From the NCBI GenBank assembly GCA_913774725.1, contig CAJYIG010000314.1:1-15587 (forward strand): 15,587 bases of DNA, written 5' to 3'. Made by a program: the position numbers and the translations under genes. This document shows, piece after piece, positions 7,384 through 15,587 of the stretch. Source of the stretch: an uncultured Curtobacterium sp. (lineage in GTDB: Bacteria; Actinomycetota; Actinomycetes; Actinomycetales; Microbacteriaceae). Under the pieces are notes generated by a model that had not been told where the DNA came from, searched no databases, and saw only the letters and a program-made list of their open reading frames with translations. The number at the start of each line of letters is the position of its first letter. The first letter of the stretch is position 1.

Positions 7384-7878
7384 TCAGTCGCCGAGCCCGA
7401 GGATGAGCCGTCGCAGCAGCGCGGACAGCTGCGCCTGCTCGGCGTCCGCCAGCTCGGACAGGATCGCGCGCTCGGCCCGGAGCAGGTCCGCGATCGCCGT
7501 GTCCACGGCCGCCCGACCGCTCGCCGTGAGCGACACGAGGATGCCGCGGCCGTCCCTGGGATCGGTGCGACGGCTCACCAGCCCCCGCGCTGCGAGCCGG
7601 TCGACCCGGTTCGTCATCGTGCCGCTCGACACCAGGGTCTGCTGCAGCAGCGACTTCGGGCTGAGCTCGTACGGTTCGCCCGCGCGCCGGAGCGCCGACA
7701 GCACGTCGAACTCCCACGGCTCGACGTCACTCGCGTCGAAGGCCGCCCGTCGTGCGCGGTCGAGGTGTCGGGCGAGTCGATCGACGCGGGACAGGACCTC
7801 GAGCGGGCCGAAGTCCAGGTCGCCGCGCTCCCGACCCCACGCCGCGACGATCCGGTCGACCTCGTCCTGCTGCGGCAT
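7384..7878 (-). CDS. MarR-family transcriptional regulator
   Basis: Predicted 164-residue dimeric winged-helix DNA-binding protein. PWEFDVLSALRRAG (54-67) enters the DNA-binding domain. SSGTMTNRVDRLAARGLV (84-101) is the recognition helix region, and RRTDPRDGRGILVSLT (103-118) is the MarR wing with its characteristic DxRxxR-like motif. Helices at both ends would form the dimer interface. No effector can be deduced. The ATG at 7878 is preferred: GGAGGG lies directly against it, too close for a normal ribosome site, but CAAGAT sits six bases upstream like the -10 at 5459, so it may also be leaderless. An upstream in-frame ATG at 7944 would extend it with unconserved-looking sequence. It converges on the ABC-F gene and may or may not control it. 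Confidence 0.85.
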   Translation of the reverse strand: MPQQDEVDRIVAAWGRERGDLDFGPLEVLSRVDRLARHLDRARRAAFDASDVEPWEFDVLSALRRAGEPYELSPKSLLQQTLVSSGTMTNRVDRLAARGLVSRRTDPRDGRGILVSLTASGRAAVDTAIADLLRAERAILSELADAEQAQLSALLRRLILGLGD

Positions 7879-7972
7879 CCCTCCATCTTGGCCGAAGCCG
7901 CCGCGCGCGGCCAGTGTCCGGGCCGTGGGAGGATGGACGGGCACCGGACGGGCTCCACCCCGCCCGGTGTGT

Positions 7973-8044
7973 TCCGCCTTGGTGTAACGGCAGCACGACG
8001 GCCTTTGGTGCCGTTAGGTCCGGGTTCGAATCCTGGAGGCGGAG
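7973..8044 (+). tRNA. tRNA-Gln, anticodon TTG
   Basis: A 72-base cloverleaf. The acceptor arms are 7973-7979 and 8037-8043 (7 bp), with G8044 as discriminator. The anticodon stem ACGGC/GCCGT (7998-8002 with 8010-8014) encloses loop CTTTGGT with anticodon TTG at 8005-8007. The T arm CCGGG/CCTGG (8020-8024 with 8032-8036) encloses TTCGAAT. The U1-A72 pair and G73 are identity marks for glutamine. CCA is not encoded. Confidence 0.96.
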
Positions 8045-8210
8045 CGCGGCGTCGTTCCGGCCGACGCAGGGCAGCCTCCCTCCTCGGTGAGCGTCGCGCT
8101 GTGCCCCGTCGCCTGCTCGAGAGTCCCGACGGCGACCGGTGATGCGCTGCGTTTGCTCACCGCGGCTCGCGGCCGTGGCCGGGCGGTGCTGGCCCGTCGG
8201 CGTTGCGACG

Positions 8211-8227
8211 ATCGCGTACTTCGAGCG
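8211..8227 (+). promoter_or_regulatory. Upstream copy of the shared 17-bp motif (BNR operon)
   Basis: ATCGCGTACTTCGAGCG matches the consensus ATTGCGYRYTTCGNGCA except at the third and last positions. It lies 74 bases upstream of the copy that overlaps the -35, i.e. seven turns of B-DNA on the same helical face if 10.5 bp per turn is assumed. This would suit a repressor looping between two sites. Confidence 0.5.
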
Positions 8228-8284
8228 ACAACGGCGCATGCACTCGCGCACAACGGCCGGAGAGTGCGCATGACGCGCATGGCC

Positions 8285-8314
8285 ATTGCGCACTTCGAGC
8301 AGTTCTGTCAGGAT
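8285..8314 (+). promoter_or_regulatory. Predicted promoter of the BNR operon with overlapping shared motif
   Basis: TTGCGC (8286-8291) and CAGGAT (8309-8314) are separated by exactly 17 bases and could act as -35 and -10, giving a leader of about 50 bases before the ATG at 8372. The 17-bp motif ATTGCGCACTTCGAGCA (8285-8301) covers the -35. The kinase promoter at 13520 has the same motif in the same register. A protein bound here should block RNA polymerase. Confidence 0.55.
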
Positions 8315-8371
8315 GAGCGCTCAGCACCGATCCACCGGTGCCCACCGTCAACGTCGACTGGAGGACCCCGC

Positions 8372-9610
8372 ATGAGTGACTTCGACGGGCTGTTGCGAGC
8401 CCGGTCCGACGGGGGCGCACAAGCGCTCCTCCCGACCCCCACGGTGCAGTGCCACGCGGCCAACCTCGCGTTCCTGCCCGGGGGAGACCTCGCCTGCGTG
8501 TGGTTCGGCGGTACCCAGGAGGGCGTCTCCGACATCTCGATCCACCTGTCGCGCCTCCCCGCCGGCACGGATCGCTGGCTCGAGCCGGTGCAGCTGAGCT
8601 TCGACAGTGCGCGTTCCGAGCAGAACCCGATCCTCTTCGTCGCGCCCGACGGCGCCGTCTGGTTGCTGTACACCGCACAGATCGCCGGGAACCAGGACAC
8701 GTCCGAGGTGCGACGACGTGTCTCCCACGACGGCGGCGAGACCTGGGGTGACCCGGCGCCGTTGCTCGGTCACGATGCACCGGTCGGCGTCTTCGTGCGC
8801 CAGGCACCCGTCGTGCTCGAGAGTGGTCGGATCCTGCTCCCCGTGTTCAACTGCCGGACGGTCGCCGGTGAGAAGTGGGTCGGCAACGACGACACGGCTT
8901 CGGTCTGGTACTCGGACGACGGCGGGCAGACCTGGTCCGAGGTCGCCGTGCCCGAGTCGACCGGGTGCGTGCACATGAACATCGTGCCGCGCGAGGACGG
9001 GGTGCTCTGGGCGTGCTTCCGCTCCCGCTGGGCGGACCACGTGTACGAGTCGACGTCGACGGACGGCGGGATGACGTGGGCGCCGTGCCGTCCGCTCGAC
9101 CTGCCGAACAACAACTCCTCGATCCAGGCGCGTTCCCTCGACGACGGTCGGATCGCGATGGTGATGAACCACTCGAGCAAGGACGACGCGACGAGCCGCC
9201 GTGTCTCCCTGTACGACGAGATCGACGACGAGGGCCTCGCAGTCGACAGCGGTCCGCGGGTCGCCGAGCCCGCGCTCGACGCCGACGGACCCAGCGCGTT
9301 CTGGGGTGCGCCGCGCGCGCCGATGACGCTCGTGGTCTCGAGCCCGGACGGGCGGTCCTGGCCGACCGCCTACGACATCGAGAACGGTGACGGGTACTGC
9401 CTCTCGAACAACAGCCGCGAGTCACGCAACCGCGAGCTGTCCTACCCCTCGGTGCTCCCCGACCCGGCCGGGGGACTTCACGTCGCGTACACCTGGCACC
9501 GCAAGTCGATCAAGCACGTGTACCTCCCTGCTGACGTCCTCGCCGAGATCGTCTCGACGCCGTCCGCCTCTGCCGGTCCGGACCTCCCTGCGAAGGAGCA
9601 GCGAGCATGA
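8372..9610 (+). CDS. Sialidase-like BNR/Asp-box protein, cytosolic, function unknown
   Basis: A 412-residue beta-propeller protein of the BNR_2 (sialidase-like) superfamily. Three clear Asp boxes (S/T-x-D-x-G-x-T-W) are visible: SHDGGETW (118-125), SDDGGQTW (181-188) and STDGGMTW (229-236), plus a degenerate SPDGRSW further on. The C-terminal ELSYPSV...YTWHRKSIKHVYL is characteristic of the predicted-neuraminidase branch (COG4409/COG4692 type). There is no signal peptide, so it should act inside the cell on an imported compound. Members of this fold include glycosidases and polysaccharide lyases, so true sialidase activity should not be assumed. The ATG at 8372 has GGAGG at 8360-8364. The stop overlaps the permease ATG (ATGA), and the gene leads the operon. 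Confidence 0.85.
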   Translation: MSDFDGLLRARSDGGAQALLPTPTVQCHAANLAFLPGGDLACVWFGGTQEGVSDISIHLSRLPAGTDRWLEPVQLSFDSARSEQNPILFVAPDGAVWLLYTAQIAGNQDTSEVRRRVSHDGGETWGDPAPLLGHDAPVGVFVRQAPVVLESGRILLPVFNCRTVAGEKWVGNDDTASVWYSDDGGQTWSEVAVPESTGCVHMNIVPREDGVLWACFRSRWADHVYESTSTDGGMTWAPCRPLDLPNNNSSIQARSLDDGRIAMVMNHSSKDDATSRRVSLYDEIDDEGLAVDSGPRVAEPALDADGPSAFWGAPRAPMTLVVSSPDGRSWPTAYDIENGDGYCLSNNSRESRNRELSYPSVLPDPAGGLHVAYTWHRKSIKHVYLPADVLAEIVSTPSASAGPDLPAKEQRA

Positions 9611-11043
9611 CCCTCCCCATGGTCTTCGCACTCGCGATCACCGTCTTCATGATCGTGCTGATCATGATCGACCGCCTGCCGTTCGGCGTCCCGCCGTTGA
9701 TCGCCTGCCTGCTGATGGTGGTGTTCGGCGTCGTGCCGATCAACGTGGCCTTCAGCGGTTTCGCCAACGCGACCATCATCATGCTCGCCTCCTTCATGGC
9801 GGTGATCGCTGCGCTGCAGAAGACCGACCTCGTCTCGGGCTTCAAACGGATGATCACGAGACTCGGGACGAAGGGCGGGTTCCGGGCCTACGTCCTCATC
9901 GTCGTGTTCGTCATGGTGGGCTGCAGCATCTTCGGCACGGGATCCACGGCCTACTACGTGCTGGTCATCGGCCTGCTGTCGACGCTCGCGTACAACAAGA
10001 AGCTGCCGCCGTCGAAGGTCCTCATGCCGGCCGGGTTCGCCGCGAACCACCCGATGCTGCCGTTCAACGTGGCGCTGCAGTACGGCATCGTCGTCGCGGT
10101 GCTCGAGGCGGCCGGCGTCCGGGAGAACATCGACCTCGTCCGGTTCTCGATCGTCAACCTCGTGCTCAGCCTCGGATTCCTCGTCTGGTGCCTCATCGCG
10201 TACCGTCTGCTGCCCGACCATGCGATCACCGACGAAGCGGCTGGCACCGCGAGCACGACGGATGCGCAGGAGCCGGCCCTGGCCGGTGCTCGTCCGACCG
10301 GCGCAGGGTCCGACCGCCCCGGAGCCCACCACGACCCGTCGAGCGACCCTGCGGCACCGGGCCCCCACGCCGCCGAGGCGAACGCCACCGCGATCGCCTC
10401 GTCGAGCGCGACGGCGACGGTGACCGCGCCGACGCTGGATCGTCGGAAGCAGCTGGCAACCTACGCCTGCTTCGTCCTGGCGATCGCCGGCATGATCTCG
10501 TACAGCTACATCGGTGACGCGGGCTACGCGATCACGGGGCTCTCCGTGGCGCTCCTCCTGGTGATGAAGGTCCTGGACTTCACCGAGATCCGCGACGCCA
10601 TCAGCCAGCCGATCATCATCATGTCCGCCGGCGTCATCGGCATCGCCGAGGCGCTCGGCGCGACCGGGCTCACGAAGCTGGTCGGCGAGTCCGTCGCCGG
10701 TCTGCTCGGCGGCAACGTCAGCCCCTTCCTGCTGGTGTTCGCGTTCTGCGTCCTGACGAGTGTCCTCGCGACCCTCACGGGGTCGACGATCGGCACGGTC
10801 TACGTCTTCGCTCCCCTGGCGATCGCGACGTGCGTCAGCCTTGGGCTCAACCCCGCGGCGGCGGCGGTCGCCATCGTCATCTCCGGGTGGAACGGACACT
10901 TCCTCCCCATCGACGGGCTCCCCGCGATGGTCATGGGCGTCGGCAAGTACTCGCTCCTGCAGTTCTGGAAGTTCACGATCCCGATGTACTTCATCCGCCT
11001 GCTGGCACTGACCGCCGGTGCCCTCCTGCTCTTCCCGATGTGA
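9607..11043 (+). CDS. SLC13/DASS-type permease (sodium-coupled or proton-coupled anion transporter)
   Basis: A 478-residue membrane protein made of two hydrophobic halves, about residues 1-204 and 283-478. They are joined by a hydrophilic, Ala/Pro/Thr-rich linker (about 205-280). Each half has a TGST motif at a corresponding site, GTGSTAYYV (110-118) and LTGSTIGTV (390-398). These stand where the two SNT substrate/cation motifs lie in classical DASS carriers. AANHPMLPFN (145-154) and SGWNGHFLPIDGLPAM (426-441) are further conserved-looking loops. The likely substrate is a carboxylate or sugar acid used by the neighbouring enzymes. AAGGAG at 9593-9598 precedes the ATG, which overlaps the BNR stop by 4 bases. 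The exact transporter family name is less certain than its transport role. Confidence 0.82.
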   Translation: MTLPMVFALAITVFMIVLIMIDRLPFGVPPLIACLLMVVFGVVPINVAFSGFANATIIMLASFMAVIAALQKTDLVSGFKRMITRLGTKGGFRAYVLIVVFVMVGCSIFGTGSTAYYVLVIGLLSTLAYNKKLPPSKVLMPAGFAANHPMLPFNVALQYGIVVAVLEAAGVRENIDLVRFSIVNLVLSLGFLVWCLIAYRLLPDHAITDEAAGTASTTDAQEPALAGARPTGAGSDRPGAHHDPSSDPAAPGPHAAEANATAIASSSATATVTAPTLDRRKQLATYACFVLAIAGMISYSYIGDAGYAITGLSVALLLVMKVLDFTEIRDAISQPIIIMSAGVIGIAEALGATGLTKLVGESVAGLLGGNVSPFLLVFAFCVLTSVLATLTGSTIGTVYVFAPLAIATCVSLGLNPAAAAVAIVISGWNGHFLPIDGLPAMVMGVGKYSLLQFWKFTIPMYFIRLLALTAGALLLFPM

Positions 11044-11090
11044 TCGAGCCCGACCGTGAACGCCACCCCGAACAGGAAGCGCGGCCTCCC

Positions 11091-11447
11091 GTGAAGAACA
11101 CCTTCGAGCTCGCCCACGTGGGCATCAACAACCCCGACGCAGCAGCCGCGCAGGAACTCTGCGACCTGTTCTGCCTGATGTTCAACCTCGACCCTCGCGG
11201 GGGGAAGAAGTCGGAGTTCGCCGGCACCTTCTTCGAGTGCGTGCGGTCGCAGTACCTCGGGACGCACGGTCACATCGGGATGTCGACGGCCGACCTCGGG
11301 GCGGCGGTCGAGGAACTCACCGCGAAGGGCTTCGCCTTCGACGAGGAGACGGCCGCCCACTTCGACGACGGACGGTTGCAGAACATCTACCTCGCGGGGG
11401 AGTTCGGCGGCTTCGCCGTGCACGTGATGCAGCAACCCCGACCCTGA
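11091..11447 (+). CDS. Small VOC-fold protein related to the C-terminal domain of some KDPG aldolases
   Basis: A 118-residue protein reading KNTFELAHVGIN at its start, then GTHGHIGMSTADL (about 60-72), and ending FGGFAVHVMQQ. The spaced AHVGIN and HIGM segments and the final strand fit a vicinal-oxygen-chelate fold. From memory of the family, the same pattern occurs as a C-terminal extension of some KDPG/KHG aldolases in Firmicutes. Here it stands alone, 46 bases before a DHDPS-type aldolase gene, which suggests it serves that aldolase as partner, isomerase or epimerase. The start could be the GTG at 11091 (weak AGGAAG at 11074-11079) or the in-frame GTG at 11040, which overlaps the permease stop by 4 bases. 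The first is preferred because the conserved-looking part begins there. Confidence 0.75.
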   Translation: MKNTFELAHVGINNPDAAAAQELCDLFCLMFNLDPRGGKKSEFAGTFFECVRSQYLGTHGHIGMSTADLGAAVEELTAKGFAFDEETAAHFDDGRLQNIYLAGEFGGFAVHVMQQPRP

Positions 11448-11493
11448 CCCACCATCCGCCCCCTGGCCACCACGCCGACAAGGAGCACCCGAA

Positions 11494-12390
11494 GTGACCA
11501 CCACGATCCGCGGCAGCATCCACGCACTCGTCACCCCCTTCCACGACGACGAGTCGCTCAATCTCGACCAGATGCGCGTGCACACCGACCGCGCCGTCCG
11601 GGCGGGCGCCGACGGCGTCTTCTGCCTCGGCACCAACGGCGAGTTCTTCCAGCAGACCGAGGACGAACGACTCGCCGTGCTCGAGGCGGTCGTCGACGCC
11701 ACCGAGGGCCGGGTGCCCGTCTACGGCGGCGCCGGTGCCGTCGGGACGAAGGAGACGGTGCGCATCGCCCAGCGCATGCAGGCGGCGGGCGCGGACGTGC
11801 TCTCGGTCATCACGCCGTACTTCGCGGCCGCATCGCAAGACGAGCTGTACCGGCACTTCGCCACGGTCGCCGAGGCCGTCGACATCCCCGTCCTCATCTA
11901 CAACATCCCCGCGCGGACCGGGAACACCATCACCCCCGCGACCGTCGCCCGGCTGGCGGAGCTCGACACCATCGCCGGTGTGAAGGACTCCTCGGGCAAC
12001 TTCGACGCGATCCTGCAGGTCATCGAGCTGACCGACCCCGAGCACTTCGCGGTGCTCGCCGGGACCGATTCGCTGGTCCTGCCGACCCTGCAAGCCGGCG
12101 GCGCGGGCGGCATCACGGCCGTCGCCAACGTCTACCCGCGCACCATGGTGGACATCTACCGGCGGTGGGCTGAGGGTGACCTCGAGGGCGCCCGCGCGGC
12201 GCAGGCCTCGATCCGGTCGCTGCGCAACCTCTTCGCGCTCGGCAACCCGAACACGATCGTCAAGGCGGCGACGAACGCCGCCGGCGAGGCCGTCGGACCC
12301 TGCCGCGCACCCTTCAATCTGCTCGGTGACGCCGCGCTGGCGAAGATCGCCGAGACCGTGCGCGCCGACCAGGCGGCCGGCCTGGGCTGA
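11494..12390 (+). CDS. DHDPS/NAL-superfamily class I aldolase, probably 2-keto-3-deoxy sugar acid aldolase
   Basis: A 298-residue TIM-barrel aldolase that would form a Schiff base with pyruvate. K164 in AGVKDSSGNF is the Schiff-base lysine, and Y136 in LIYNIPARTGN is the catalytic tyrosine. The pyruvate carboxylate loop reads LGTNGEFFQ (45-53). True DapA has GTTGE and sialate lyases GSTGE at this place, whereas LGTxGEFxQ resembles the YagE/YjhH keto-deoxy sugar acid aldolases and HOGA-like enzymes. Lysine biosynthesis is therefore unlikely, and N-acetylneuraminate cleavage less likely. Products would be pyruvate and an aldehyde. AAGGAG at 11480-11485 sits eight bases before the GTG start. It is the last gene of its operon, followed by the terminator at 12414-12461. 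Confidence 0.87.
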   Translation: MTTTIRGSIHALVTPFHDDESLNLDQMRVHTDRAVRAGADGVFCLGTNGEFFQQTEDERLAVLEAVVDATEGRVPVYGGAGAVGTKETVRIAQRMQAAGADVLSVITPYFAAASQDELYRHFATVAEAVDIPVLIYNIPARTGNTITPATVARLAELDTIAGVKDSSGNFDAILQVIELTDPEHFAVLAGTDSLVLPTLQAGGAGGITAVANVYPRTMVDIYRRWAEGDLEGARAAQASIRSLRNLFALGNPNTIVKAATNAAGEAVGPCRAPFNLLGDAALAKIAETVRADQAAGLG

Positions 12391-12413
12391 GGCGCCGCAC
12401 CACCGCGACCACG

Positions 12414-12461
12414 GAAGGACGGGAGGCCCGGTGCCAGCGGGCACCGGGCCTCCCGTCCTTC
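12414..12461. terminator. Bidirectional terminator with perfect 22-bp stem
   Basis: Arms 12414-12435 and 12440-12461 are fully complementary around the four-base loop AGCG. CGACC (12406-12410) and GGTCG (12466-12470) could extend the base. It lies between the convergent aldolase and aldo/keto reductase genes, 24 and 12 bases from their stop codons, so it should end both transcripts. AAGG before and CCTT after the stem give only a minimal T-run. Confidence 0.9.
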
Positions 12462-12472
12462 GCACGGTCGTG

Positions 12473-13444
12473 TCAGCGGTTGTACGCCGGCATCGGACCA
12501 CGGAGCGAGGCCGCGACGTCGTCGACGGCCTGCTGCACGTCCCCCGGGAGTGCGCCCGCCGCCAGCGCCTCGAGGTTGGCTGCGATGTTCGTGATCCGCG
12601 ACCCCCCGATCAGGACCGCGTCGACGACGGGTCGGCCGATCGTCCACCGCAGTGCGAGCTCCGCCATCGGGATGCCAGCGCCCTCGGCGATCGTCCGGAG
12701 CTGCTCCACTACGGCGAAGACGTCGTCGTTCCAGTACCGCGTGCGGTACATGCCGGCCAGGGGCGAGGACCCGAACCGTCCCTCCGACGGCTGCTCGTCC
12801 GCACGGTGCTTCCCGGTGAGGAGACCGCCGCCGAGCGGGTTGTAGACGACCGTCGCGAGGCCGGTGCTCCTGGCGTACTCGGCGTACTCGTCGTCGATCC
12901 GGGTCGCGATCACGTTGTAGACCTGCTGCCCGAGGACCGGTGCACCGAGACCGAGCCGCTCGGCCGCGTGCCGCAGTTCCGCGATCTGCCAGGCGGAGAA
13001 GTTCGAGACGCCCCAGGTGCGGACCGCGCCCGAGTCCACGAGCGCCTGCACGGCGGTGAGTGTCTCCTCGACGGAGGTGGAGCGGTCGGGCTGGTGGAGG
13101 TAGAGCACGTCGACGTGGCTCGTCCCCAACCGGCGGAGGCTGGCTCGGACGCACCGGTCGATCGCCACGGCAGACAGGGGAGCAGCGCCCTCCGCGTCGG
13201 GGTTCGGGATGCCGACCTTCGTCGCGAGCACGACGTCGTCGCGGCGTCCGGCGAGGACCGACCCGAGGATCTCCTCGCTGCGGCCCCCGGCGTACCCGTT
13301 CGCGGTGTCGATGCCGGTTCATCCGGACGCGAGGAACAGGTCGACCACCTCGCCAGCGGTCCGTTCGTCGACGCTGTCGCCGAACGTCATGGTGCCGAGG
13401 ACGGCGGGGGCGAGGCGGTGACCTCGGATGTCGATGTCGCGCAC
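12473..13444 (-). pseudogene. Aldo/keto reductase with an in-frame TGA at codon 42
   Basis: The frame from GTG 13444 to the stop at 12473 would give a 323-residue aldo/keto reductase, normal in length. It holds the full catalytic tetrad D46, Y51, K76 and H117 (GIDTANGY, ATKVG, YLHQPD). GVSNFSAWQ and YNPLGGGLLTG are also family-typical. One codon is TGA (13321-13319), between LASG and TGIDTAN. The frame is unbroken on both sides, so this is a single nonsense codon, possibly TGG (Trp) changed by one base, and not a frameshift. AGAGGA precedes the GTG. The downstream part alone (from GTG 13231) would lack D46 and Y51 and should be inactive. A recent mutation, a sequencing error or readthrough are all possible. 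It probably handled an aldehyde or sugar of this locus. Confidence 0.85.
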
Positions 13445-13519
13445 TGGGTTCCTCTCGGTCGGGCACCGTCCGGCCACTCGGCGTCGTGTCGCGCGTCCGG
13501 GTCCGGTGCGCTCAACACT

Positions 13520-13559
13520 ATTGCGTGTTTCGCGCAAGACGTCTAGCGTGTTTCGTGCA
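13520..13559 (+). promoter_or_regulatory. Kinase operon promoter with two copies of the shared 17-bp motif
   Basis: TTGCGT (13521-13526) and TAGCGT (13544-13549), 17 bases apart, form a good -35/-10 pair with a leader of about 54 bases to the ATG at 13610. Motif copies ATTGCGTGTTTCGCGCA (13520-13536) and CTAGCGTGTTTCGTGCA (13543-13559) begin 23 bases apart, one over the -35 and one over the -10. The first is also an imperfect dyad, TTGCG-N7-CGCAA. On the minus strand TAGTGT (13515-13520) could be a -10 for the aldo/keto reductase, so the same sites may control both directions. Confidence 0.65.
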
Positions 13560-13609
13560 CGTCGTCGTTCCATCGACCGCACCATCCACCGAGCCCGAGG
13601 AGGGGTCCG

Positions 13610-14926
13610 ATGTCCAAGCGCCTCGCCGCGATCGCCGACGACCTGTCCGGCGCCGCCGAGGTCGCCGCGGTCCTCGGTCCCGACCCCGCCACCGTCGCCC
13701 TCACGCTCACCGGCGCGCTCGGACACGTCGCGCGCTCCGCGTCCGACGTCGTCCTCGACTGCGACACCCGAGCGCTCGACCCGTCGGCGCGGCGCGCCGC
13801 CTTCGCACGGGCAGCACTGCAGATGCGCGCCGCCGGAGCGCCCGTCGAGCTCGTGAAGACCGACTCGCTGCTGCGCGGCGGCGTCGGGGACGTCGTCGCC
13901 GGGCTCACCGATGCCGGGGCCCGCGTGGTCGTCGCCACAGCGCTCCCGGCCCTCCGACGGACGGTCGTCGAGGGCCAGCTGCTCGTCCACGGCGGTCCGG
14001 TCGCCGATGCCGGTCTGCACGGACTGGAGGCGCGGGTCGTCGCCGGCCCGCTCGCTGCGATCGGACCGCGGGCCCGTTCCGTCCCACTCGCGGTCGTCCG
14101 CGCCGACGCGGATGCCGTCCGCGACGCGGTCGTCCGGGCACTCGACGCCGGCGACGTCCCCGTCCTCGATGCCGACTCGGACGACGACCTCGACCGGATC
14201 GCGTTCGCCCTCGACCAGACCGACTGCACGGTCGTCGGTTCGGGTGGGATCGCCGCAGCCGTCGGCCGGCTCCGCGGAGCGCGCCCGTCCGATCCGACCG
14301 CGCCGGCGATGGTCGCGCCCGCGCCCCTCGGTCCGGCGGCGCTCGCCGGGACACGCCAGCCGGTGCTGCTCGTGGTGGGCACGGCCAGTGCGGAGGCGTC
14401 CGGGCAGCTCGAGGTGCTCGCCGCGAACGGTGTCCCGGTGGTCCCGGTGCCACGTGACGTCCTGCTCCGCGCGGTCGACCGTCGCGAGGTCGACGACATC
14501 GACCACCCCGCCATCACCGCCGCGCGGTCGGCGTTGCGGGACGGATCCGTGGCGATCTGCGTCGCGGACCGGCACGAACCGATCCCGCAGCTCGCCCGTC
14601 GGCTCGCCGACGGCCTCGGCATCGTGGCCGCCGCAATCAGCGGCCGGTCCGCGCTGGTGCTGACCGGCGGCGAGACGGCACGCTCGGTGCTGAGCCGCCT
14701 CGAGATCGCGACGATCGTGCCCGAGGGCGCCGTCGAACCCGGCTGCATCGTGTCCCGCGCAGACGACGGCCGTCGTGTCGTCACGCGACCCGGCAGTTTC
14801 GGGACGGCCACCAACCTGCTCGACGCGGCCACGTTCCTCCAGGCCGTCCAAGATGATCCGTCCGCGGCCGCGAGCCGTGTCGAAGCGGCCGTCGACCGCG
14901 CGAACCGAAAGGCAGTACTGAGATGA
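13610..14926 (+). CDS. Four-carbon acid sugar kinase (OtnK/DtnK family, former DUF1537)
   Basis: Predicted to phosphorylate a C4 sugar acid such as threonate or erythronate at O4 with ATP. The 438-residue length is typical of this two-domain family. The N-terminal substrate domain shows ADDLSGA (9-15), DCDTRA (50-55) and KTDSLLRG (83-90). The C-terminal nucleotide domain shows LTGGETA near 350 and the closing VVTRPGSFG near 390-398. All are family hallmarks. AGGAGG at 13598-13603 lies six bases before the ATG. The stop overlaps the start of the PdxA-type gene (ATGA), a pairing known from characterised D-threonate and D-erythronate pathways, where the dehydrogenase acts on the kinase product. 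The stereochemistry of the substrate cannot be told from the sequence. Confidence 0.92.
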   Translation: MSKRLAAIADDLSGAAEVAAVLGPDPATVALTLTGALGHVARSASDVVLDCDTRALDPSARRAAFARAALQMRAAGAPVELVKTDSLLRGGVGDVVAGLTDAGARVVVATALPALRRTVVEGQLLVHGGPVADAGLHGLEARVVAGPLAAIGPRARSVPLAVVRADADAVRDAVVRALDAGDVPVLDADSDDDLDRIAFALDQTDCTVVGSGGIAAAVGRLRGARPSDPTAPAMVAPAPLGPAALAGTRQPVLLVVGTASAEASGQLEVLAANGVPVVPVPRDVLLRAVDRREVDDIDHPAITAARSALRDGSVAICVADRHEPIPQLARRLADGLGIVAAAISGRSALVLTGGETARSVLSRLEIATIVPEGAVEPGCIVSRADDGRRVVTRPGSFGTATNLLDAATFLQAVQDDPSAAASRVEAAVDRANRKAVLR

Positions 14927-15587
14927 ACGCCACTCCTGTTGTCGCCGTCACGATGGGCGACGGGGCCGGTGTCGGCCCCGAGGTCGTCGTCGAGGCCGTG
15001 GTCTCCCCGGACGTCCGCGCCGTCTGCCGCCCGGTCGTCATCGGCGACCTCGGCCGCCTGCGCCAGGCCGCCGCGATCCGTGGCGTCGACGTCACGTTCA
15101 ACGTCGTCGAGGACGTGGCCGACGCCGGGCACCAGGACGGTGTCGTCGACGTGGTGGACCTCGGGCTCCTCCCGGAGGACCTGCCGTGGGGACGGCTCTC
15201 GCCCGTCGCCGGCGACGCTGCGTTCCAGTACATCCGCGTCGCCTGCGATGCGGCCATGGCCGGGAAGGTCCAGGCGATCTGCACCGCGCCGCTGAACAAG
15301 GAGGCCCTGCACGCCGGCGGACACGTCTTCCCGGGCCACACCGAGATGCTCGCGGAGCTCATGGGCGTCGACGAGGTCTCGATGATGCTCTCGACGGCGA
15401 AGCTGAAGGTCGTCCACGTGACCACCCACCTCGGGCTCATCGACGCCGTGGCACGCATCGAACCGGGACTCGTCGAGCGGACGATCCGGCGGGGCAACGA
15501 GGCCCTGGTGCGTGCGGGGAACCCGCGCCCGAGGATCGGCGTCGCGGCGATCAACCCGCACGCCGGCGAGAACGGCCTGTTCGGCTA
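14923..15587 (+). CDS. pdxA: PdxA-family 4-phosphohydroxy-acid dehydrogenase, PdxA2-type (partial at right edge)
   Basis: About 221 residues are visible before the window ends, roughly two thirds of the usual 320-340. VTMGDGAGVGPEV (9-21), CTAPLNKEAL (K126), PGHTEML (H139), VTTHLGL (H169) and INPHAGENGLFG match the PdxA family. The histidines correspond to metal ligands in E. coli PdxA. Family members oxidise a 4-phospho-hydroxy acid with NAD and decarboxylate the product. PdxA proper uses 4-phosphohydroxy-L-threonine in vitamin B6 synthesis. The 4-base overlap with a C4 acid sugar kinase argues for the catabolic PdxA2 role, yielding dihydroxyacetone phosphate from 4-phospho-threonate or -erythronate. 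The ATG at 14923 lies within the kinase stop region. Confidence 0.9.
   Translation, partial: MNATPVVAVTMGDGAGVGPEVVVEAVVSPDVRAVCRPVVIGDLGRLRQAAAIRGVDVTFNVVEDVADAGHQDGVVDVVDLGLLPEDLPWGRLSPVAGDAAFQYIRVACDAAMAGKVQAICTAPLNKEALHAGGHVFPGHTEMLAELMGVDEVSMMLSTAKLKVVHVTTHLGLIDAVARIEPGLVERTIRRGNEALVRAGNPRPRIGVAAINPHAGENGLFG

Follow-up and report, generated by a model that had tools for sequence, protein, structure and literature searches.

The 15,587-nt contig C314 of an uncultured Curtobacterium sp. (order Micrococcales), which in its entirety forms the window analysed here, comes from a 2.5-Mb, 73% complete genome and carries two predicted operons, one encoding a BNR (sialidase-like) protein, a permease, a VOC protein and a DapA-like aldolase, and the other a DUF1537 kinase and a PdxA-like dehydrogenase. 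Each is preceded by a pair of inverted repeats placed at its predicted promoter. From sequence comparison we consider it highly probable that an autoregulated DeoR-family repressor, encoded 3' of pdxA, controls both operons as a single acid-sugar pathway; autoregulation is proposed because of the gene order. In what follows, L-numbers denote the loci compared, G-numbers genomes, and C-numbers contigs.

Paired inverted repeats at two predicted promoters

The original prediction described four sites fitting ATTGCGYRYTTCGNGCA. Their coordinates and sequences were right, and the sites at 8285-8301 and 13520-13536 were exact, but those at 8211-8227 and 13543-13559 each had two mismatches. The repeated site is real, although its unit had been drawn differently. 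Since the first block of the kinase promoter is a perfect or near-perfect inverted repeat, we took the unit to be TTGCGY-N5-RCGCAA, a predicted 17-bp control element that is used in pairs; a further dyad, at 8264-8280, had been overlooked. The TTTCG that had been read as a DeoR-like core is the variable centre of this repeat, and the conserved part is formed by the TTGCGY and RCGCAA arms. With each dyad scored by its matching positions out of 12, the copies and predicted promoters in the window are as follows.

8212..8228, + strand: distal, weakest copy before the BNR operon (TCGCGTACTTCGAGCGA, 9/12), 74 bp upstream of the 8286 copy
8264..8280, + strand: putative operator dyad (GTGCGCATGACGCGCAT, 10/12), 22 bp upstream of the 8286 copy
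8286..8302, + strand: putative operator over the BNR-operon −35 (TTGCGCACTTCGAGCAG, 10/12), first 16 bp identical in L036, L037 and L038
8286..8314, + strand: predicted BNR-operon promoter TTGCGC-N17-CAGGAT, −35 at 8286-8291, −10-like element at 8309-8314
13521..13537, + strand: putative operator 1, over the kinase-operon −35 (TTGCGTGTTTCGCGCAA, 12/12)
13521..13549, + strand: predicted kinase-operon promoter TTGCGT-N17-TAGCGT, inside the operators, −35 at 13521-13526, −10-like element at 13544-13549
13544..13560, + strand: putative operator 2, over the kinase-operon −10 (TAGCGTGTTTCGTGCAC, 9/12), 23 bp from operator 1

Both promoters hold a pair of copies, 8264/8286 (22 bp apart) and 13521/13544 (23 bp apart), and at both operons the putative operators sit in a promoter-like register, the start sites being predicted. 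The shared register claimed earlier, TTGCGC-17 bp-CAGGAT and TTGCGT-17 bp-TAGCGT, can be read directly from the sequence. At up to three mismatches the window contained six matches to the motif as originally proposed against 0.48 expected, and none of 200 shuffles reached six, an excess that must be read with the caveat that this consensus was derived from the sites themselves.

The distal copy at 8212 has a score-9 counterpart, equally far upstream, in L036 and L038; in L037 no counterpart reaches 9, and in L046 and L047 there is no separate one. The 74 bp between the distal and −35 copies (8212-8302) correspond to about seven helical turns. The distal copy aligns with the promoter copy of L046 and L047, hinting at a partial promoter duplication.

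The DeoR-family gene beside pdxA

A DeoR-type regulator had been guessed at, and its gene was to be sought to the right of pdxA; a DeoR-family gene was found there, just past the contig end. The same position, directly 3' of pdxA, is occupied by a DeoR-family gene in six Curtobacterium relatives (L036-L039, L046 and L047). In the source genome the end of contig C345 overlaps the last 26 bp of the window, continues pdxA and then reads into the regulator gene.

C345:10796-11551, − strand: DeoR gene of the source genome, product 97% identical to the L036 protein

The L036 protein contains an HTH_DeoR domain (PF08220, 2.2e-14) and a DeoRC domain (PF00455, 2e-41), both above their gathering scores, and comparison of the regulator with solved structures gave one DeoR C-terminal match. 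In Curtobacterium the DUF1537 kinase gene (PF07005/PF17042) lies in the same strand run as pdxA and deoR.

Conservation of the putative operator and the regulator

Conservation upstream of orthologous operons, by which the original prediction was to be judged, was found in related genomes. Among seven Curtobacterium kinase promoters, 14/17 and 16/17 columns of the two operators were invariant (30/34); outside the operators the invariant columns numbered 3/40 and 1/40 in the flanks and 0/6 in the spacer (4/86). The full-length regulator was present in 7/66 Curtobacterium genomes, to which G076 adds a 139-residue piece, and the pattern TTGCGYN5RCGCAN7TAGCG occurred in exactly the seven genomes with the full-length protein, with no match for the reversed control. 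The BNR gene was present in 6/66 genomes, and all six carried a 22-bp-spaced pair at its promoter with copies scoring 9-11/12, the pair lying about 70 bp further upstream in L046 and L047. The BNR promoter hexamers and their spacing were the same in L036, L037, L038 and L047; L046 has CAGACT at the −10 place. L039 lacks BNR and has a pair with 23-bp spacing before a major facilitator superfamily (MFS) transporter gene, an arrangement consistent with uptake genes having been swapped under one regulator.

Regulators at E ≤1e-50 were found in 21/394 class genomes, the source genome included, and we added two loci from other orders, Nonomuraea L053 (Streptosporangiales) and Saccharopolyspora L054 (Pseudonocardiales). 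Of the resulting 22 non-Curtobacterium loci, three (L088, L090 and L098) stop with their contigs short of the kinase start, leaving 19 testable loci with regulators of 52-59% identity. A dyad of 11-12/12 lay directly upstream of the kinase or regulator gene in 18 of these 19; in the nineteenth, L101, two perfect dyads head the run holding BNR, kinase, pdxA and regulator. Together the 19 loci held 29 dyads of at least 11/12 versus 3.7 expected, the chance rate from first-order Markov resampling being about 1e-5 per base, or 0.003 per 300 bp. By tblastn the kinase was linked to the regulator in 17 of the 22 loci; the kinases of L087 and L092 were added from a separate search, and L088 shows pdxA only. 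L086 and L089 yielded no kinase in the stretch, and their dyads stand between the genes for the regulator and the aldo/keto reductase. In G160, the genome of one of the cut loci, the kinase start is on a contig other than that of the regulator locus and carries a perfect dyad.

The genome with the cut locus L088, G370, belongs to another family and has TTGCGCGAAACGCGCAA before BNR (C14) and TTGCGTGAAACGCGCAA before the kinase and aldo/keto reductase genes (C4); judged by sequence, these perfect dyads are an independent copy of the two-target pattern. The earlier proposal of one regulator for both operons thus gains support from the conserved pairs, from the co-occurrence of regulator and pattern in 7/66 genomes, and from G370. 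Relatives of the BNR protein at 57-61% identity occurred in 6/20 non-source regulator genomes, five of them on the regulator's contig, and two further regulator genomes had relatives at 44-45% identity. In L053 the kinase gene and a solute-binding-protein gene (PF00496) point away from each other, and the far end holds an HpcH/HpaI aldolase gene. Dyads of 11/12 also occur inside kinase genes (L054 at 7812, L091 at 7611 and L099 at 7215), 178-289 bp past the main operator, and these are possibly auxiliary operators.

Outside the 19-locus count stand L055-L057 (28-33% identical), the Curtobacterium paralogues L104-L108, whose regulator is about 40% identical, and L109. L055, the one of the first three that was scanned, gave no clear dyad pair. 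Four of these loci (L104, L105, L106 and L108) represent a second DeoR-pdxA-kinase cluster, with a regulator about 40% identical, in other Curtobacterium genomes; their dyad pairs are 21 bp apart and score 10-11/12, and three open with TTGCACACAA. Dyads of 10 and 9 of 12 were present in L107 and, 23 bp apart, in L109, which has kinase and pdxA and no regulator match. The second cluster suggests a paralogous regulon with a related operator.

Specificity of the motif

Several counts weigh against the assignment of these repeats as operators. The 16-mer TTGCGYRYTTCGNGCA has two exact matches in the source genome, both in the window, but at up to two mismatches it was at background genome-wide, with 26 matches versus 34 for the reversed control; likewise, the loose 16-mer gave at least 190 matches at one to two mismatches in six genomes versus at least 221 for its reversed control. 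Because matches at one to two mismatches equal background, the loose consensus is not specific; the specific signal is the exact sites together with their conservation. Across 27 regulator-bearing genomes there were 45 perfect dyads versus 72 for the reversed control, and therefore position alone, not number, separates real from chance sites. By the raw count on which the original prediction staked itself, the motif was at background; at the cluster promoters it was not, for 22 of the 45 perfect dyads lay there, in 20 genomes.

The class-wide pattern TTGCGYN5RCGCAAN6TAGCG matched in 11/394 genomes, 10 of them with the regulator, giving a Fisher p of 1.7e-13 that is inflated because 8 of these 10 matches come from one genus and so are not independent. 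The reversed control gave five matches, in four genomes, versus the 11, and the match in G329 precedes a gene for an MMPL membrane protein, away from any cluster gene. Moreover, the BNR-promoter copies in the window are imperfect dyads (9-10/12), and in the kinase-promoter alignment (22 rows, 7 from Curtobacterium and 15 from other loci) three rows, L085, L093 and L096, lack TAGCG at the −10 place and four have CTGCGC or GTGCGC, not TTGCGY, as the first hexamer. The remaining 19 of the 22 have TAGCG 17 bp after the first hexamer. A first doublet pattern, whose spacer fell one base short of that in the kinase promoters, was rejected: it matched in 4/394 genomes versus 13 matches for its reversed control. 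It matched at the 22-bp BNR pair of the window, next to the regulator in the kinase-side region of G449, and at one place each in G058 C63 and G454.

Relation to known DeoR systems

Corynebacterium SugR is reportedly a DeoR-type repressor of phosphotransferase system (PTS) genes (PMC2222622). The likeness is that of an actinobacterial DeoR-type repressor of carbohydrate genes; the target genes differ, and the comparison is one of description, not of operator. Further parallels come from clusters with a DUF1537 gene. The Escherichia coli DeoR-family protein YgbI is described as repressing ygbJK and also affecting ygbLMN (PMC8464067). Like YgbI, the Curtobacterium protein is a DeoR-family regulator encoded beside a DUF1537 kinase gene; in that account the YgbI site overlaps the target promoter and autoregulation is indicated, and the Curtobacterium case looks alike in both respects. 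Unlike the Curtobacterium region, the ygbI-ygbJ intergenic region is without a good TTGCGY-N5-RCGCAA dyad (best 9/12), and the E. coli stretch has ygbJ, ygbK, ygbL, ygbM and ygbN but no pdxA or BNR gene. In its likely working the Curtobacterium regulator resembles YgbI, but it scores 85 bits where the YgbI equivalog requires 400, and so is not a member. YgbI is also named at other E. coli promoters in a second report (PMC7567609), which is not used here.

In Brucella, VdtR is described as a DeoR-family repressor of an aldolase-DUF1537 cluster for D-erythronate and L-threonate, with several binding regions in one promoter and induction of the cluster by the acid sugars of the pathway (PMC10580937). 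It too is a DeoR-family repressor inside a DUF1537 cluster; the term pdxA occurs 0 times in the main text of that paper, no operator consensus was seen in the portion of it covered here, and the likeness is drawn from description, not from protein sequence. Among literature titles and the opening lines of abstracts, we recognised no actinobacterial or Curtobacterium regulator of this type and no TTGCG operator of a DeoR protein. That the regulator and its operator are a further example of the known DeoR/DUF1537 type of gene switch, as in YgbI and VdtR, is well supported.

Proposed mechanism and alternatives

We propose that a kinase-pdxA-deoR operon encodes a DeoR-family repressor, probably oligomeric, that would bind paired 17-bp inverted repeats with a spacing of 22-23 bp. 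The kinase-promoter pair covers the predicted −35 and −10 elements, and the BNR-promoter pair the predicted −35 and the 22 bp upstream of it. Without inducer, repressor on the pairs would keep RNA polymerase off both promoters and limit its own synthesis. The inducer may be an acid sugar or its phosphorylated product, which would bind the DeoRC domain and free the operators; release would turn on uptake (permease), processing (BNR, DapA-like and VOC proteins), and kinase/PdxA-type oxidation of one sugar-acid pathway. A repressor is the best fit because the pair covers the kinase −35 and −10 and because the two DUF1537-linked DeoR proteins cited from the literature, YgbI and VdtR, repress.

A different candidate is the MarR-family protein (7384-7944, − strand), the only regulator gene recognised within the window, which adjoins the BNR operon; since MarR proteins, too, recognise inverted repeats, the sites could be MarR operators. 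We consider this very unlikely, since the MarR gene is present in all 66 Curtobacterium genomes versus 7/66 for the operator-promoter pattern, MarR and the cluster are on different contigs in G081 and G011, and the operator accompanies the DeoR gene into other orders. If the DeoR protein does bind the sites, it might chiefly activate transcription or play a dual role; a DeoR-family activator exists in NCBIfam (the L-fucose operon activator), and the BNR-promoter copies, at or upstream of the −35, occupy a possible activator position. We think this improbable, as the kinase-promoter pair covers both −35 and −10, the YgbI site is reported to overlap the ygbJ promoter with deletion raising ygbJKLMN (PMC8464067), and VdtR is reported to repress its own DUF1537 cluster (PMC10580937).

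The repeats might also be nothing but a conserved core promoter, with TTGCGY as −35 and TAGCGT as −10. The dyad arms do coincide with the promoter hexamers, and seven of eight rows from genus g68 keep TAGCGT after loss of the second dyad, which points to this hexamer serving as a −10 by itself. Yet the full dyad is conserved, including the RCGCAA arm in the spacer, an arm dispensable for a promoter; its symmetry is perfect in several orders; dyads stand between regulator and aldo/keto reductase genes in L086 and L089; and dyad presence tracks the regulator. A core promoter without operators therefore seems scarcely credible to us.

If the repressor assignment is right, the outcome is a concrete predicted regulon, with regulator gene, operator, promoter register, and target operons, and it would connect the BNR protein and the aldo/keto reductase with an actinobacterial DUF1537/PdxA acid-sugar pathway, giving a lead to the substrate of proteins so far labelled by domain alone. 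We lean, by a narrow measure, towards the broader view that these loci define an unnamed actinobacterial regulator subfamily for an acid-sugar pathway (BNR protein, aldo/keto reductase, DUF1537 kinase, PdxA-like protein, and HpcH- or DapA-type lyase), in which half-sites double as −35 and −10 and this fusion has been kept, with the 22-23 bp pairing, across orders while transporters and gene order were swapped. Operator arms that are also core-promoter hexamers would then be a case of constrained regulatory evolution.

Gene layout of the window

The genes and other features around the two promoters are as follows.

7384-7944, − strand: MarR-family protein gene
7973-8045, + strand: tRNA-Gln(ttg)
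8372..9610, + strand: BNR_2 (sialidase-like) protein gene (PF13088, 3.5e-64)
9607..11043, + strand: CitMHS/DASS-type anion permease gene (PF03600, 2.4e-32; TIGR00785 below cut-off)
11091..11447, + strand: VOC (glyoxalase-fold) gene, GTG start (PF00903, 1.6e-4)
11494..12390, + strand: DapA-family aldolase/dehydratase gene (PF00701, 1.4e-74)
12414..12461, + strand: perfect, GC-rich inverted repeat of 22 bp around a 4-base loop, read by eye
12473..13444, − strand: aldo/keto reductase gene, divergent from the kinase gene (PF00248, 1e-43 for the portion beyond the in-frame stop)
13610..14926, + strand: DUF1537 (SBD_N + NBD_C) acid-sugar kinase gene (PF07005, PF17042)
14923..15587, + strand: pdxA-like dehydrogenase gene, truncated where the contig ends (PF04166)

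The kinase did not reach the D-threonate kinase equivalog (68.8 bits, cut-off 450) or the 3-oxo-tetronate kinase equivalog (44.8 bits, cut-off 350) and had no match among solved structures; the BNR protein gave weak sialidase-type structure matches only. The PdxA-like protein scored 194.6 bits against the D-threonate 4-phosphate dehydrogenase equivalog (cut-off 583), on the 221 residues before the contig end. An in-frame TGA (13319-13321, no frameshift) interrupts the aldo/keto reductase gene early in the reading frame; the frames are intact, at 323 residues, in L037, L038 and L039, and the stop may be a real loss or an assembly error. The inverted repeat at 12414..12461, between the convergent dapA-like and aldo/keto reductase genes, is likely a terminator. 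The tRNA-Gln(ttg) gene separates the MarR gene, which is ubiquitous, from the patchily distributed cluster, and in G076 the regulator piece is about 2.2 kb from the MarR gene of that genome; the tRNA-Gln region is possibly an island where genes are gained and lost.

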